DNA of 23,013 nt from a virus. The notes below the pieces were generated by a model. It searched no databases. It saw nothing but the letters and a program-made list of their open reading frames with translations, and was not told the origin of the DNA. How positions within the stretch are numbered: the stretch's first letter is position 1; every line of letters starts with the position of its first letter. The position numbers and the translations under genes are program-made. Where the stretch lies: IMG/VR virus record IMGVR_UViG_3300048068_000114, positions 1-23,013 of that record. One strand, given 5' to 3'. Below, one piece after another: positions 4,664 through 20,067 of the stretch.

Positions 4664-4818
4664 TATTTTTTCTTCTTCCCGCCTATGTTGTAATTCTTAG
4701 CTCCAACCTTACGGCACTTAGCCATATGACCGGAACGATATGCAGAATTTTTAGGCATGGCTCTCGCTACTTTCTTGTAGCAAGCATCACGCTTCGGTTT
4801 CTTTTTCTTAGCAGCCAT
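4663..4818 (-). CDS. 51-residue Lys-rich Cys-containing small protein
   Basis: A short reading frame from ATG at 4818 to TAA at 4665-4663, overlapping the next start as TAATG. It begins MAAKKKKPKRDACYKKV, continues with NSAYRSGHMAKCRKVGAKNY and ends in a Lys tail. The DACYKKV...SAY.SG...KCRKVGAKN pattern is a small motif seen in other marine viral proteins. Together with its two neighbours it forms a run of basic, coupled mini-genes in the late operon. Function is unknown. Support comes from tight overlap on one side and the recognisable motif. Confidence 0.7.
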   Translation of the reverse strand: MAAKKKKPKRDACYKKVARAMPKNSAYRSGHMAKCRKVGAKNYNIGGKKKK

Positions 4819-4822
4819 CAGA

Positions 4823-5089
4823 TTACCATTTCTTGCAAGACCAGTATCGGGCCGTTAATTTACTCTTGGCAGTGTCACACTTATGCCTAGCTCTGAAAGA
4901 TTTACGGGCTTTGGGATTATCTTTTCGGATTTCCATATTAGGGTCTCCGAATGTGATATACTTCACGTTATCACCCTCAACAGCCAGCACTTCAAACTTC
5001 TTTGGGCCACCCCTGCGCGGTTTATTTACCGCCGTGAACCCATGCCGTTTTTTACCTGCGGCTATCTTTTCTGCTTTAGTCTTTGCCAT
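4823..5089 (-). CDS. Small basic protein, DUF6321-like
   Basis: 88 residues, basic. Visible pieces are KPRRGGPKKFEVLAVEGDNV, the stretch KYITFGDP, and the end ARKSFRARHKCDTAKSKLTA followed by RYWSCKKW. The pattern of a FGD turn, then RKSF.ARH.CD..K.K..A.YWSC..W, matches a small conserved phage and giant-virus family (DUF6321-like). The family's biochemical role is not known; a nucleic-acid-binding or capsid-associated role is speculation. Its ATG shares its A with the stop of the upstream gene (TAATG). Confidence 0.7.
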   Translation of the reverse strand: MAKTKAEKIAAGKKRHGFTAVNKPRRGGPKKFEVLAVEGDNVKYITFGDPNMEIRKDNPKARKSFRARHKCDTAKSKLTARYWSCKKW

Positions 5090-5340
5090 TATGCCACCAC
5101 AAAATCTACTATTTGTCCGTCAGGGGTACGCAACTTGTTAGGGTCAGGATTGTATGCGTATAGCTGGTTAACCAACTTTAAGTTCTCTACCGGAGTGTCC
5201 TTATCTATAGGCTGCACTGATCCAGCTTCCCCTGCATTAACCTTCTTCTCAACTTCCTCTCCGCGACCACTTTCAAATATAACATTCACATGTGTCTGAA
5301 AGGGCATACTAGGAAGCGGAAAATGAGATATAAGTGTCAT
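5089..5340 (-). CDS. Conserved-looking hypothetical late protein
   Basis: 83 residues, no family recognised. It has a hydrophobic start, then FQTHVNVIFESGRGEEVEKK, and ends NPDPNKLRTPDGQIVDFVVA. The first ATG (5340) overlaps the upstream stop as ATGA, which favours it over the internal Met at residue 12. The stop overlaps the next start as TAATG. This coupling on both sides supports a real gene. The segment DGQIVDFVV resembles a beta hairpin; no membrane helix is evident. Confidence 0.65.
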   Translation of the reverse strand: MTLISHFPLPSMPFQTHVNVIFESGRGEEVEKKVNAGEAGSVQPIDKDTPVENLKLVNQLYAYNPDPNKLRTPDGQIVDFVVA

Positions 5341-12454: not shown

Positions 12455-12734
12455 AGAAGAAGTATTCAGCAATTTTATATGGGCTATTGGTGGTTTGACT
12501 GAGGTTATTGGTCAAATGCACTGTAGCACCACTAATGAAGCTACTCAGCTACACTGGCATGATGATGAGAACTACTGGTTCACGTTAGAAATGCGTGAAG
12601 ACGGTATTTATGCAGAGATAGACGATAGTACGGATGCAAAGACTATGTATGCTGCTATCGGATACTGCCAGTATCATGGCATCTCCTACAGTCTAATTTG
12701 GCAAGACTATAGAAAAGAGAAGTCCAATGGCTAA
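12447..12734 (+). CDS. Hypothetical early protein
   Basis: 95 residues from the ATG at 12447, preceded by AAGGAGAAGTCAG; a longer reading from 12393 runs through the previous gene and lacks a ribosome-binding site. It contains MAKEEVFSNFIWAIGGLTEV, HWHDDENYWFTLEMREDGIY and YCQYHGISYSLIWQDYRKEK. The aromatic-rich beta layout is small and probably cytoplasmic; no family recognised. Its tail again overlaps the next gene's start, in the same arrangement as the previous junction. Confidence 0.65.
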   Translation: MAKEEVFSNFIWAIGGLTEVIGQMHCSTTNEATQLHWHDDENYWFTLEMREDGIYAEIDDSTDAKTMYAAIGYCQYHGISYSLIWQDYRKEKSNG

Positions 12735-13839
12735 AGCTCCCTATGTAAGACCCCGAATGCGGGGCAATCGCATGGTCTATGATATTAGATCAACCACAGC
12801 ACTCTCTCAGGCGTTCCCTAATATCAAGTTCCCTGAGACATACACCCTATTGTCTGAAGCTAATGCCCGTGGCTACGAGCTTAAGCGTAAGTTTGAGGCT
12901 TGGAAGTGTGGTAATCATGATGATATTCATGTGGACGAGCGTTCTGTTGAAGCTCTTATTCAGGCATATAAACAATCCAATGCCTATAAGAACATAAAGA
13001 AGGATGAGACTAGGCGTTCATACCTCAGTCACCTTAACTATGTTTCGTCTATACACATAGGTAATGTGTCATTCGATAGAATGCTTGTGCCAAACATAAA
13101 CTATAAGTTTGTACAAAATCTGTGGCAACACATACAGAATGATGTCTCTACACATAAAGCTAACCACACTGTGAAGGTATTAAAGCTGGTTTGGATGGAA
13201 GCACTGCGCTCTGATAGCGTCAAGACTAACCCATTCTCTCTACTTAAATTACCAAAGCTGCCTGACAGAGAGGTTTTGTGGCCCGAAGAGCATATACAGG
13301 GCATGATCGACTTCTGTGATGAACAGGGGCGACAGAGTATGGGTACTATGATCACTCTGTTGTATGAGTTTTGCCAGCGTGTAATTGATGTACGTCTACT
13401 AACATGGGACAACTTCGATCTAGAGGCTGGTCACTGTAATTTCACCCAACAAAAGACAGGGGCTAAGATGTCTATCTCTCTGACCCCATCTGTTCGTAAA
13501 CGTCTGGAGCTACATACCCGTAGTAACAGGGACAACTATGTATTGCGTGAGGAAAGTACAGGCAAGCCATACACCAGTGATCGGGCAGTGAAGTCTTTTA
13601 GAAGATTAGCCAAAGCCTATAAGCTACCAACGTCATTTGATAATGCTACTGGTAAACTTACTAACATTTGGCTGAATGATCTGCGCCGTACAGGTACTAC
13701 CCATGCAAGTCGTGCTGGTTGTACGGACAGAGAACTGATGTCTTTAACCGGACATCGCAACCCCCAGATGCTGGTAGTATATGCCAAGCATGGGAATATT
13801 GAAGCTGAGAACGCAATGCGTAAACGAGGGTTACTCTAA
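12727..13839 (+). CDS. int: Tyrosine-type site-specific integrase
   Basis: 370 residues. It joins phage and host attachment sites. The N-terminal arm- and core-binding parts occupy about 1-180. The catalytic domain follows, with box I YEFCQRVIDVRLLTWDNFD, box II LNDLRRTGTTHASRAG (Arg320) and GHRNPQMLVVYAKHG (His343, nucleophile Tyr352). The usual His of H-x-x-R is Asn317, a substitution that some active integrases tolerate. AAAGAGAAGTCCA precedes the start, and the gene overlaps the upstream stop by 8 bases. The attP-like tRNA-Asn fragment lies 1.4 kb downstream. This makes the phage temperate by gene content. Confidence 0.95.
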   Translation: MAKAPYVRPRMRGNRMVYDIRSTTALSQAFPNIKFPETYTLLSEANARGYELKRKFEAWKCGNHDDIHVDERSVEALIQAYKQSNAYKNIKKDETRRSYLSHLNYVSSIHIGNVSFDRMLVPNINYKFVQNLWQHIQNDVSTHKANHTVKVLKLVWMEALRSDSVKTNPFSLLKLPKLPDREVLWPEEHIQGMIDFCDEQGRQSMGTMITLLYEFCQRVIDVRLLTWDNFDLEAGHCNFTQQKTGAKMSISLTPSVRKRLELHTRSNRDNYVLREESTGKPYTSDRAVKSFRRLAKAYKLPTSFDNATGKLTNIWLNDLRRTGTTHASRAGCTDRELMSLTGHRNPQMLVVYAKHGNIEAENAMRKRGLL

Positions 13840-14043
13840 ATGGAATGCTTTAAAGATAAGTACACTCATGCCGGACATGAAACCAAATACAAGGTGTTTT
13901 TGGTGTACGATGAAGAAACAGATACTGTTGAGCGGTTGGCTGGTATGGGAAACACTCTGCCCTATCCCCGCCTCACCTCAATGCTGGTAGGAGCTAGGTG
14001 GCAATCTGTTAGGACTAAGAAAACTTATGAGAGGATACTGTAA
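13840..14043 (+). CDS. Hypothetical protein between integrase and ThyX
   Basis: 67 residues. It begins at the base after the integrase stop, and its own stop shares a base with the ThyX start (TAATG). It includes HETKYKVFLVYDEETDTVER and LTSMLVGARWQSVRTKKTYE. A small beta-alpha layout with no recognised family. Tight packing on both sides supports a real gene in the early operon. Confidence 0.65.
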   Translation: MECFKDKYTHAGHETKYKVFLVYDEETDTVERLAGMGNTLPYPRLTSMLVGARWQSVRTKKTYERIL

Positions 14044-14855
14044 TGGGTATTGAACAATTAACTGTAGATTATGTTGAACACAGTGGTGATGATATTTCAG
14101 TAGTTAATGCGGCTAGGGTATCCTTTGACAAAAAGTCTGAGGCTTTAGGCTATAGCGGTATTGGTGATGGTCCTATGACCCCTGTTGTGAATGATGTTGA
14201 TAAGAAGCTGATCAAGTATTTGGCTGATCATGAACACTATAGTCCATTCAACCATACCTTTGTTACCTTCAGGTGTAGCGCACCACTCTTTGTGATGGGG
14301 CAGCTTAAGAAACATGAGTATATGCCTTGGAACGAAATATCCCGTAGATATATAAATAGTGAGCCTGAGTTCTACAGGCCAGATACTTGGCGTGAGCGTA
14401 GTGAGGATAAGAAGCAAGGCTCTTCTAGTAATACAGTAGAGACCTTGCACTGGATGGAGCTTGATCATGAGCTAAGTACAGAAGAGCATCCGCTTTGGGA
14501 TAATTGGGAAGAGCCAATATCAGAGTACACAGACTACGTGTATGGCGAAGTGTCTCGACTGTATACCCTGATGATAGATAACGGCGTCTGTCCTGAACAG
14601 GCTAGGATGGTATTACCTCAGTCGATGATGAGTTCATGGATATGGAGCGGTACAGTTAAAGCAATAGCTAAAATGTGCAAGCTTCGGTGTAAGCCTGACA
14701 CGCAATATGAAAGCCGTGTGATAGCAGACAAGATCAGTGAACACATGCATACGCTGTTTCCGGTAAGCTGGTCTGCATTGATGGGTACTAACTATCCACG
14801 CATACGGCCTATGTCTGATGATGAGAGGCAGAGAGCCAAGGAGAAAGCGGAATGA
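14043..14855 (+). CDS. thyX: Flavin-dependent thymidylate synthase ThyX
   Basis: 270 residues. ThyX makes dTMP from dUMP using methylene-tetrahydrofolate, FAD and NADPH. The N-terminal half includes NAARVSFDKKSEAL and HYSPFNHTFVTFRCSAPLFV. The signature region is LKKHEYMPWNEISRRYINSE; the family motif is RHRxxSxNExSxRY, so here RHR is replaced by KHE and S by P, while NE.S..RY is intact. The C-terminal half (EQARMVLPQSMMSSWIWSGT; CKPDTQYESRVIADKISEH) fits the dUMP/FAD-binding core. Marine phages often carry ThyX to raise dTMP for replication. It overlaps the genes on both sides. Confidence 0.93.
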   Translation: MGIEQLTVDYVEHSGDDISVVNAARVSFDKKSEALGYSGIGDGPMTPVVNDVDKKLIKYLADHEHYSPFNHTFVTFRCSAPLFVMGQLKKHEYMPWNEISRRYINSEPEFYRPDTWRERSEDKKQGSSSNTVETLHWMELDHELSTEEHPLWDNWEEPISEYTDYVYGEVSRLYTLMIDNGVCPEQARMVLPQSMMSSWIWSGTVKAIAKMCKLRCKPDTQYESRVIADKISEHMHTLFPVSWSALMGTNYPRIRPMSDDERQRAKEKAE

Positions 14856-15140: not shown

Positions 15141-15165
15141 TTCACTTCTAGTAAAACTATTGCAG

Positions 15166-15206
15166 AAATCGCACTGTGCGACACCCTAATGTGCGGTGCG
15201 ATTTTT
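15166..15206 (+). terminator. Terminator of the integrase-thyX operon
   Basis: AAATCGCAC (15166-15174) pairs perfectly with GTGCGATTT (15196-15204) and T residues follow. The loop holds further small pairing. It ends the early operon and insulates the attP site from it. Confidence 0.7.
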
Positions 15207-15244
15207 GCCAATATTAAATAGAAAATATAATAAAATCAATAGTT

Positions 15245-15289
15245 TGGCTCCGGCGGTAGGGATCGAACCTACGACCAATTGATTAACAG
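15245..15289 (-). other. attP: attP-like 45-bp 3' half of tRNA-Asn(GTT)
   Basis: Read on the reverse strand, it starts with an anticodon loop CTGTTAA (anticodon GTT), then the 3' anticodon stem TCAAT, variable loop TGGTC, T-arm GTAGG-TTCGATC-CCTAC, acceptor strand CGCCGGA, discriminator G and CCA. No D-arm or 5' half is present. This is how phages that integrate into tRNA genes carry attP: the core restores the 3' end of the disrupted tRNA. A perfect 12-bp palindrome AGTTATATAACT (15288-15299) abuts the anticodon end. Integrase lies 1.4 kb away. If the window is from an integrated prophage, the site would instead sit at a prophage end, which the surrounding phage genes argue against. Confidence 0.88.
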
Positions 15290-15373
15290 TTATATAACTA
15301 ATACAAGCACTTACAGAGACTGTAGTAGAATGACTGTTATCAGTAATTGGTTGTAATAACTATGTATTAGGTG

Positions 15374-15424
15374 TTGACTGCAACATTTAATGCTGTATCC
15401 TTCGGATGCGCCCGATAGGGTGCA
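15374..15424 (+). promoter_or_regulatory. Promoter and hairpin/operator of the replication module
   Basis: TTGACT (15374-15379), 16 bases, TATCCT (15396-15401). Just after it, ATGCGCCC-GATA-GGGTGCAT (about 15405-15424) forms an 8-bp inverted repeat with one G-T pair, near the transcription start, where a repressor could bind or an RNA hairpin form. Confidence 0.55.
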
Positions 15425-15447
15425 TTATCAAAACTAGGACTATAACC

Positions 15448-16218
15448 ATGACCTATAAGCAACAACTAAAGACAGTACAGACTATACCAGTACAAGAAGG
15501 TGAGACAGTAGTAGTAACATGTCCCTTCTGCTACGGCCCAAAGAAGTTGGCTGTATCAAAGTCTGGTGGTAAACTACTATGGTACTGTTACAGAGCATCG
15601 TGTGATGCTAAAGGTGCATACTCTGGCAGACGTAATCAGAAGGCTGTTAGAGATTATCTCAATAATACAGCCCCTACTAAGAATAAGCCTATTAAGCCTA
15701 TTCCTTCTATAACAACGTCTGTTGAGAACCATGCACCCGCAATGGAATACTTGAAGAGCGTCAACAGTGTAGAAGCTTATCAGAATAAATATATAAACGT
15801 GCGGTATGCTCCGGCAGAGGACAGAGTATTATTCTATGGGCAGAACGGTGCTGTAGGAAGATCGCTTAGAAAGTTTGGACCCAAGTGGCTATCCTATGGT
15901 GAACTGCCTGAGGGTATACATGTAGGCTCTGGGGACATAGCAGTGTTAGTAGAGGACACGCCATCGGCTTGTGCAGTTAGTAGGCTGGAAGGTATAGTGG
16001 GAGTAGCATTGCTAGGAACTACCGTTACTTCTAGCATCAAGAAAACACTTAATAAATTCACTAACAAGTATTTAGTTCTTGACAAAGACGCTTCGCTAAA
16101 GTCTATTGCTCACATAAGGCGTGTAGATAGAAGCCTTAAAGTACGATTAACCAACGTAGATTTGAAGTATATGAATACTACTCAGATATACCAACTAATA
16201 AAAGGATATGTACCATGA
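15448..16218 (+). CDS. DNA primase (zinc ribbon + TOPRIM-like)
   Basis: 256 residues from the ATG at 15448 (MTYKQQLKTVQ), preceded by AGGACTATAACC; an upstream ATG at 15406 lies at the promoter start and is rejected. An N-terminal zinc ribbon (TCPFCYGPKKLAVS..., WYCYRASCDAKG) is followed by a TOPRIM-like domain with VLVEDTPSACAVSRL (catalytic Glu) and KYLVLDKDASLKS (Asp-x-Asp). It makes RNA primers for lagging-strand synthesis. In T7 these domains are fused to the helicase; here the helicase is a separate gene 320 bases downstream. Confidence 0.88.
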   Translation: MTYKQQLKTVQTIPVQEGETVVVTCPFCYGPKKLAVSKSGGKLLWYCYRASCDAKGAYSGRRNQKAVRDYLNNTAPTKNKPIKPIPSITTSVENHAPAMEYLKSVNSVEAYQNKYINVRYAPAEDRVLFYGQNGAVGRSLRKFGPKWLSYGELPEGIHVGSGDIAVLVEDTPSACAVSRLEGIVGVALLGTTVTSSIKKTLNKFTNKYLVLDKDASLKSIAHIRRVDRSLKVRLTNVDLKYMNTTQIYQLIKGYVP

Positions 16219-17754: not shown

Positions 17755-17905
17755 TATTGATTCTGTACCGAATAGTCTTTCTTTCTGGCTGGAACAGAAT
17801 GGTATCATAGAGGCCAAACCAAAGGCTGAACCAGAGCCTGTAGTTGAAAGAAACTACGAATTTAGAATGCCCCAACTAGACGAGAATGGAGAACCCCCGT
17901 TTTGA
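17744..17905 (+). CDS. 53-residue Pro/Glu-rich protein between helicase and polymerase
   Basis: ATG at 17744 lies inside the end of the helicase gene; the stop at 17905 overlaps the polymerase TTG start (TTGA). It begins MSFDIDSVPNSLSFWLEQNG, has a KPKAEPEPVVE linker and ends MPQLDENGEPPF. It looks like a flexible peptide rather than a folded domain. Overlaps on both sides support translation; a helicase-polymerase linker role is speculative. Confidence 0.65.
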   Translation: MSFDIDSVPNSLSFWLEQNGIIEAKPKAEPEPVVERNYEFRMPQLDENGEPPF

Positions 17906-20067
17906 ATATATTAGTATTAGACCTAGAAACTACGGTCCAACGTATAGAGGGGCGTACTGATAACAGCCCCTTCAATCCCTTTAACAGGTGTGTCTCTGCA
18001 CACTACGGCTTCCTAGAAGACGGTGAGGTAAAGGTACAGAATGATATACTGTATCATACCTTACTGGATCAGGCTGAGTATGCTGATCATACCCAACTAG
18101 CTGAACGCCTAGAGAAGGCTGATATGCTTGTCTGCCACAATGCCAAGTTCGATATACTATGGCTATCACAGATGGGCTTTAGAATACCGGATCAAGTGTA
18201 CTGCACTATGATAGCCGAATATATATTATCCAAGGGCCAGCGCAGACTTATATCCCTGAAGGAAAGTGCTTTTCGGCGTAAGCTAGTGAACCAGAAGAAG
18301 GGTGATCTAGTGGATGATATGTTTAAACAAGGCACAGACTTCTCTGAAATGCCGCTAGATATCATGGTTGAGTATGCAGAAGCTGACGTAAAGACCACAG
18401 GTGAGCTATACTTGTCTCAACAGGCTGACTTCCAGAAGGAAGAGAACGCATCCCTTGTTCCAGTAGTAGACTTGATGAACGAAATGCTAATGTTCTTGGT
18501 AGAGATAGAAAGCAATGGCACATATATCTCTTTGGATACTCTTGAAGAAGTTGAACGTCAGTTTGAGCAAGAGAAGAAAGAACTAACCACACGCTTGTAT
18601 GAGATTATCGAAGAAGTAATGGGTGATACGCCTATTAATTTGAATAGTGGCGCTGATATGACCAAGGTGGTTTACTCCCGCGAGGTAATCAATCGGGATG
18701 CTCATCGACAAACCTTTAATATAGGGACAAATGCTGCGGGTAAGCCTCTAAGACCCCCGCTCATGAATAATAAAGAGTTCTCTGACGCAGTAAGGTCCAC
18801 CACTAAGATCGTACAGAAGACGATGGCTATCCAATGTATGGATTGCAATGGAATAGGCAGCATACAGAAGTATAAGAAGAAGACAGTTACTAAGCTGGGT
18901 AAGAAATACTTGGTTCAAGGTGATCCATATAAGAACCGTACTAAGTGTAAGACTTGTTCAGGTGTAGGTGCTATCTATAGCCCAACTGGTGAGACCGCTG
19001 GTCTAAAGATGATCCCTAGAAGTCCCGCATACGCAAGTATCAATGGGTTCAAGACTGATAAGCACACTCTTAAAATACTTATACAACAAGCAGATAATAG
19101 CGGTAGAGATATTGCAGTAGAGTTTCTTACTAAGAGTAGTAGATTGAATGCTGTAACAACCTACCTAGATAGCTTTGTTGCAGGTATACAGCGAGGCACA
19201 CGGTCTACTGGTCTGCTACACGCCAACTTCAACCAGTGTGTGACTGCTACTGGTAGATTAAGTAGTAGTGAACCCAACTTACAGAACCAGCCCAAGAGAG
19301 GTTTCCCTGTTCGTAAGGCTATTGTTAGCCGCTTCGGGCCAGAGCATCTAATCGTTGAGGCAGACTTCTCCGGCCTAGAATTTAGAATGGCTGGTGAATT
19401 AAGTAGAGACAGTCAGATCATTACCGACATTCTTGAAGGCAAGGATATCCACAAGCAGACTGCTTCTATTATTAATCAGTGTAGCCCTGATGAAGTTAGT
19501 AAGGATATGAGACAGGCGGCAAAACAGTATTCTTTCGCCCCGTTATATGGCGGGATGGGCGCTGGTGAGAAACCGCATGTCCAAAAGTACTTTTCTGAAT
19601 TTTTTGTTTTGTACAATGGATTGAAAAAATACCAAGAAGGCTTAATGAGCGGTGTTCTGAAGACGGGTATTGTTCAGGTTCCTAGTGGCAGACAGTATAA
19701 ATGGGATAACGTAGTTCGCACTAGAAATGGTCGAGTTCGTAACGCCACTCAGATAGTTAATTATCCAATCCAAGGCTTTGCAACAGGTGACTGTGTGCCG
19801 CTTGCTTGCATTCGTGCGCTGAAACTTTTTAAGAAAAGTAATCTGCGTAGTAAATTAATCTTAACGGTCCATGATAGCATTGTGGTGGATTGCCATAAAG
19901 ATGAATTAAATCAAGTAAAACAGATACTTAAGGAAGCTATGTTAGGTATCGATGAGGAGATGAAGACTAGGTTTAAGTACACGCCAATTGTTCCTTTCGA
20001 CATTGAGATAAGTGCTGGAAATAATTGGCTAGAACAGGAAGAATTGGTGTTGACTGATGCCACCTAA
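17902..20067 (+). CDS. Family A DNA polymerase with DnaJ-like zinc-finger insert
   Basis: 721 residues. Copies the phage genome and proofreads. The 3'-5' exonuclease occupies about 1-180, with LVLDLETT, CHNAKFDILW and YAEADVKTTGELY all intact. At about 312-352 two CxxCxGxG units (CMDCNGIGS and CKTCSGVGA) make a partial DnaJ-type zinc finger, documented for phage HMO-2011 and relatives. The polymerase domain has motif A EADFSGLEFRMAGE (Asp488), motif B RQAAKQYSFAPLYGG (Arg537, Lys541) and motif C LTVHDSIVVD (His657, Asp658). The start is TTG at 17902, overlapping the upstream stop. There is no 5'-nuclease domain. Confidence 0.96.
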   Translation: MNILVLDLETTVQRIEGRTDNSPFNPFNRCVSAHYGFLEDGEVKVQNDILYHTLLDQAEYADHTQLAERLEKADMLVCHNAKFDILWLSQMGFRIPDQVYCTMIAEYILSKGQRRLISLKESAFRRKLVNQKKGDLVDDMFKQGTDFSEMPLDIMVEYAEADVKTTGELYLSQQADFQKEENASLVPVVDLMNEMLMFLVEIESNGTYISLDTLEEVERQFEQEKKELTTRLYEIIEEVMGDTPINLNSGADMTKVVYSREVINRDAHRQTFNIGTNAAGKPLRPPLMNNKEFSDAVRSTTKIVQKTMAIQCMDCNGIGSIQKYKKKTVTKLGKKYLVQGDPYKNRTKCKTCSGVGAIYSPTGETAGLKMIPRSPAYASINGFKTDKHTLKILIQQADNSGRDIAVEFLTKSSRLNAVTTYLDSFVAGIQRGTRSTGLLHANFNQCVTATGRLSSSEPNLQNQPKRGFPVRKAIVSRFGPEHLIVEADFSGLEFRMAGELSRDSQIITDILEGKDIHKQTASIINQCSPDEVSKDMRQAAKQYSFAPLYGGMGAGEKPHVQKYFSEFFVLYNGLKKYQEGLMSGVLKTGIVQVPSGRQYKWDNVVRTRNGRVRNATQIVNYPIQGFATGDCVPLACIRALKLFKKSNLRSKLILTVHDSIVVDCHKDELNQVKQILKEAMLGIDEEMKTRFKYTPIVPFDIEISAGNNWLEQEELVLTDAT

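Follow-up and report, generated by a model that had tools for sequence, protein, structure and literature searches.

tRNA-targeting phages and the locus in the window

A tRNA 3′ half that serves as attP, and so leaves the tRNA intact on insertion, is a textbook arrangement. For the HMO-2011-type phages, a dominant and widespread marine group (PMC9038755), the precedent is CRP-3, whose integration in tRNA-Met(CAT), with a core lying over the tRNA 3′ end, was proven by sequencing and PCR (PMC6918029). CRP-3 alone had a mapped integration site in the HMO-2011-type literature that we searched, and the main text of the description of Roseobacter phage CRP-738 makes no mention of an attP or integration site (PMC9038755). 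The Paracoccus yeei prophage vB_PyeS_PD51 uses tRNA-Asn(GTT) (PMC6536676, Table 3). Searching the literature for roseophage or Rhodobacteraceae-phage use of tRNA-Asn by those terms returned no relevant paper.

The DNA analyzed here, hereafter the window, is the whole 23,013-nt stretch of IMG/VR record IMGVR_UViG_3300048068_000114. Megablast of the window against phages gave no matches, and the closest integrase among phage records was that of CRP-738 (59.6% identity). The relevant genes and transcription signals are as follows:

12727–13839, plus strand: tyrosine integrase, 370 aa (PF00589, E = 9e-14; PHROG 1, E = 4e-35)
14043–14855, plus strand: ThyX-like thymidylate synthase, encoded between int and attP (PHROG 85, E = 9e-55)
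15162–15208, no strand assigned: 18-bp hairpin separating the int-thyX operon from attP, a probable terminator (fold −26.7 kcal/mol, z −6.3)
15374–15401, plus strand: promoter-like TTGACT-16-TATCCT, preceding the primase gene (weak consensus match only)
15406–16218, plus strand: DNA primase, whose gene opens the replication operon across attP from int-thyX (PHROG 47, E = 2e-13)
17902–20067, plus strand: DNA polymerase whose DnaJ-like insert carries two CXXCXGXG motifs, a hallmark of the HMO-2011 type (PHROG search)

The window also encodes a DnaB-like helicase and an exonuclease, and its integrase gene lies upstream of a primase-helicase-polymerase replication module, as in HMO-2011-type phages, the polymerase of which carries an unusual DnaJ-like insert (PMC6918029). 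On the basis of its polymerase motifs and gene order, the window is a fragment of an HMO-2011-type phage. The record runs unbroken across the attP and therefore represents the free, non-integrated form. The integrase retains the catalytic boxes QRxxD, DLRR, GH, and Y, and the first His of its HxxR box is replaced by Asn; across the aligned integrase family this residue was never His (Asn, Ala, Ser, Arg, or Met), and in the integrase of CRP-3, which is known to integrate, it is Arg. The GTTGAC stretch of the promoter-like element is kept in relatives. Where the window has the hairpin, relatives carried hairpins of quite different sequence, a pattern that suggests a conserved terminator that covaries.

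Like CRP-3, the window phage is of the HMO-2011 type and holds a tRNA 3′ half between int-thyX and the primase gene in the same orientation. It differs from CRP-3 in its integrase (31% identical), in the tRNA concerned, which is tRNA-fMet in CRP-3, and in the start of host identity, which is at position 32 in the window and at position 39 in CRP-3. CRP-738, also HMO-2011-type, shares the placement of its tRNA-Asn half with the window phage, and its integrase is 60% identical to that of the window; it differs by a compensated T-stem pair and by having no palindrome at the core. The prophage vB_PyeS_PD51 shares its host family and tRNA target with the window phage, but it is a siphovirus prophage.

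The tRNA-Asn half in the window, in hosts, and in integrase relatives

The initial annotation had recognized the 45 bases from the anticodon loop to the CCA end of a tRNA-Asn(GTT), 1.4 kb from the integrase, and had proposed that they form an attP whose use would restore the tRNA-Asn of the host. Both the bases and the distance are borne out, the integrase ORF ending at 13839:

15245–15289, minus strand: predicted attP core, the 3′ 45 nt of tRNA-Asn(GTT), tRNA positions C32 to A76 (sequence, host matches, and the same half in relatives)

The minus-strand sequence, CTGTTAATCAATTGGTCGTAGGTTCGATCCCTACCGCCGGAGCCA, covers the anticodon loop, 3′ anticodon stem, variable loop, T arm, 3′ acceptor strand, discriminator, and CCA, and its identity with host tRNA-Asn begins at C32. 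It sits in an intergenic gap with the int-thyX operon on one side and the primase gene on the other. ARAGORN and Rfam called no tRNA in the whole 23-kb window, itself a fragment of the phage, and the 5′ half is therefore absent, as the annotation had stated; no complete tRNA-Asn is present within the window, for which Rfam returned no matches of any kind.

Exact matches to the 43-nt GTT...CCA string came from at least 119 genome loci; 77 of the 80 titles among the matches listed belonged to Rhodobacteraceae-type genera, and the other three were alphaproteobacterial metagenome-assembled genomes. All 123 core copies at the matches listed (at least 119 loci) were identical over the full 45 nt. 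Whole tRNA-Asn genes accounted for 106 of these copies, with the core matching exactly at the 3′ end of the gene, and 15 were 3′ halves alone, the marks of integration by other elements. Shuffled controls gave no matches to the core even when 12 substitutions were allowed, and the match to host tRNA-Asn is far beyond chance. ARAGORN recognized a clean tRNA-Asn(GTT) when a host 5′ half was joined to the phage core, and none in the attP alone. Because the core or a natural variant of it was present in 293 of 397 Rhodobacteraceae genomes, the proposal that the core would name the host holds to the level of the family Rhodobacteraceae but not below it, and naming a host species from the core is ruled out by this spread.

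Unrelated elements of ~10–11 kb lay between a whole tRNA-Asn and a 3′ half in three Rhodobacteraceae genomes (loci L277, L278, and L279 in G202, G380, and G101, respectively), two of them with a recognizable integrase beside the half; tRNA-Asn is therefore a working attB in this family. The cargo of these elements varied (reverse-transcriptase-like, Eco57I-like methylase, VapE-like, and DUF3987 genes). Same-strand core pairs ~10–26 kb apart were recurrent in Rhodobacteraceae genomes, pointing to an integration hotspot at tRNA-Asn.

We also collected 30 IMG/VR loci by their integrase alone, 29 of which span the int-primase gap (L256 ends too early). Of these 29, 27 had a tRNA-Asn half with 0–4 substitutions where the window has its own, and none carried a whole tRNA. 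The remaining two, L247 (gap at 4700–5300) and L250 (2300–2830), kept int and had lost the tRNA half from the gap, and may be natural attP losses. Viral contigs that were found through the core and carry an HMO-type integrase or primase likewise all had the half and never a whole tRNA. The clade that keeps the half at one place and in one orientation includes integrases down to about 36% protein identity. In a sister integrase clade formed by CRP-3, CRP-235, and CRP-212, this gap holds a tRNA-fMet half, likewise oriented, and the Asn, fMet, and no-half types were cleanly separated in the integrase tree.

The half of CRP-738, at 2934–2978 and unannotated in its record, is identical to the window core at 43 of 45 positions. 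Its two changes jointly preserve a T-stem pair (GTAGG/CCTAC to GTTGG/CCAAC), and the same allele occurs in two Rhodobacteraceae genomes (G190 and G206). A third phage allele, TTCGACC...CGTCGG (L242–L246 and L249), is also present in genomes G017 and G094. The identity of the 45-bp core, its position in the gap, and its conservation across the integrase clade are established by these sequence comparisons.

Integration, chromosomal residence, and the point of exchange

Exact host matches, a position kept in dozens of relatives, and the CRP-3 precedent strongly support the earlier proposal of an attP that rebuilds host tRNA-Asn. We are highly confident that the site is best explained as an attP through which an integrase-bearing HMO-2011-type roseophage targets a host tRNA-Asn gene. 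The phage integrase would recombine the core with the host gene. At attL, the host 5′ half and the phage 3′ half would form a whole tRNA, followed by the hairpin terminator at 15162–15208 and, beyond it, by the thyX-int operon, which would read toward the tRNA; at attR, the primase end of the phage would adjoin the displaced host 3′ half.

What follows insertion is less certain. Searches of 397 Rhodobacteraceae and 385 alphaproteobacterial genomes (782 in all, a sample in which known positives were recovered) turned up no integrated relative, and the alphaproteobacterial search gave two weak matches with integrases 25–29% identical. Since no integrated relative occurred in these approximately 780 genomes, stable lysogeny can only be inferred. 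The attP and integrase might work while insertion is rare and transient, in which case the phage would not be a classical temperate phage. This is a serious rival because T7-like cyanophages with int and attP integrate and form no stable lysogens (PMC8776855). Those phages (S-TIP37 and P-SSP7) resemble the window phage as marine phages that combine an integrase and attP with lytic behavior; their hosts are unrelated, and their integration has been shown to be transient (PMC8776855). Consistent with such a mode of life, a pattern scan of viral contigs found no attL-like junction, every HMO-type contig was in the free attP form, and no repressor was recognized in searches that were not repressor-specific. 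Against it, the T arm, acceptor stem, and CCA of the halves are exact or carry compensated changes that match host alleles, which would be needless for integrase binding alone and suggests selection for a working tRNA during real residence. The set used to assess conservation of the T arm and acceptor strand was picked by core match and is biased in that respect; the set collected by integrase alone is free of that bias. Because extrachromosomal phage DNA has no tRNA to fold, a half matched to real host genes is the simplest reading of this conservation. The exact T arm and acceptor strand argue that the phage does, at least sometimes, reside in the chromosome, and we regard insertion that is always rare and fleeting as a substantial, though somewhat less probable, alternative to residence of this kind.

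The initial annotation had placed strand exchange at the anticodon end of the core, and this did not hold up. L138- and L177-type attPs have a mismatch with the host at T33, and L258-type attPs and CRP-3 share identity with the host only from position 39. Exchange must therefore lie 3′ of those limits in these relatives, and the anticodon loop is thus an unsafe assignment for the family. In L258–L262, the tRNA-Asn half has its anticodon loop replaced (CTACCAC), and the start of identity at position 39 in these loci may place the exchange point. Exchange would lie somewhere 3′ of position 32 in the window phage; for the family as a whole, it is probably at position 39 or farther 3′. Strand exchange at the anticodon loop itself is unsupported, as the shared core of the relatives starts at 39.

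Flanking sites and the wider integrase family

We examined the DNA bordering the core for further motifs, listed here with the repeats that had been noted earlier:

15234–15246, plus strand: IHF-consensus site AATCAATAGTTTG, overlapping the CCA end (motif scan; same −2 offset in CRP-3)
15288–15299, no strand assigned: 12-bp palindrome AGTTATATAACT, judged a chance feature
15298–15305 and 15363–15370: inverted pair of TGTATTAG
15301–15313, plus strand: ATACAAGCACTTA, a degenerate version (two mismatches) of a second phased IHF-like position, at offset −69, where several relatives have a perfect copy
15331–15355, plus strand: TGACTGTTATCAGTAATTGGTTGTA, an imperfect, inverted match to the anticodon-arm region of attB (shuffle test)

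The site at 15234–15246 is the sole perfect WATCAANNNNTTR on either strand of the 23-kb window. CRP-3 likewise has a single perfect IHF-consensus site in its 6.5-kb locus, at −2 from the CCA end, and CRP-235 and CRP-212 have one site each at −70. In 15 dereplicated tRNA-Asn attPs we counted 13 perfect sites, compared to 0.19 expected (maximum of two in 500 simulations); these counts come from related attPs, and for that reason are not independent, and they use the E. coli consensus. The E. coli IHF consensus has reportedly been applied in another study of phage attP. When one mismatch was allowed, all 15 attPs had at least one site at −69/−70, −2, or +9/+10 from the CCA end, and only one site occurred at any other offset outside the core. 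Across lineages, the choice of site varies and the offsets stay fixed.

We infer that IHF binds at these phased consensus sites, and the integrase would be aided by IHF bending at −69/−70, −2, or +9/+10 from the CCA end. A one-mismatch version of the motif, AATCAATTGGTCG, also lies within the core, and for this reason the integrase may be the protein that reads it, the phased motif then being a core- or arm-type integrase site; this alternative is live. We nevertheless consider it doubtful, since, for two different tRNA targets, the motif in the attPs fits the IHF consensus WATCAANNNNTTR down to its separate TTR element.

The remaining repeats fared less well as functional signals. The palindrome AGTTATATAACT is real and lies at the anticodon edge of the core, as had been noted, but as a signal for exchange it is rejected: the window has four perfect 12-bp palindromes versus 7.1 expected, and this one is broken in L148 and absent in other relatives. 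The inverted TGTATTAG pair also exists, but its suggested role as arm sites is not supported, as the pair is confined to relatives with an integrase at least 93% identical and its right copy lies 3 bp upstream of the promoter-like −35 box. The score of TGACTGTTATCAGTAATTGGTTGTA was reached in none of 2,000 shuffles, near-equal matches occur elsewhere in the window, and the match is weaker in relatives; it is, with low confidence, a possible accessory integrase site.

The half could also be a passively captured host fragment (a transduction scar or decayed gene) with no role in integration, as the presence of a 3′ half alone might suggest, but this is highly improbable given its one place and orientation in integrases down to about 36% identity, the other tRNA half at the same place in a sister clade with proven integration (PMC6918029), and the phased IHF-consensus sites that border it.

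We return to the attP of a roseophage that targets host tRNA-Asn. To judge from the searched literature, the new elements are tRNA-Asn as the target of a large integrase clade with CRP-738 among its members, a switch of tRNA isotype within one fixed locus, and the phasing of IHF-consensus sites. We tentatively suggest, as a possibility that we do not favor strongly, that the attP locus is a fixed slot in which the tRNA isotype (fMet or Asn) switches with the integrase and the half is kept matched to host alleles, compensated stem pairs included, even though no prophage has been seen. If this were so, these phages would reside in the chromosome often but briefly, renewing their tRNA half from the host. 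The tRNA-Asn core links uncultured contigs to Rhodobacteraceae and provides a testable integration target for the whole integrase clade, the cultured phage CRP-738 included. The exact attL and attR predictions that follow from it can be searched for in metagenome reads, as a gauge of how often these phages integrate in the ocean.
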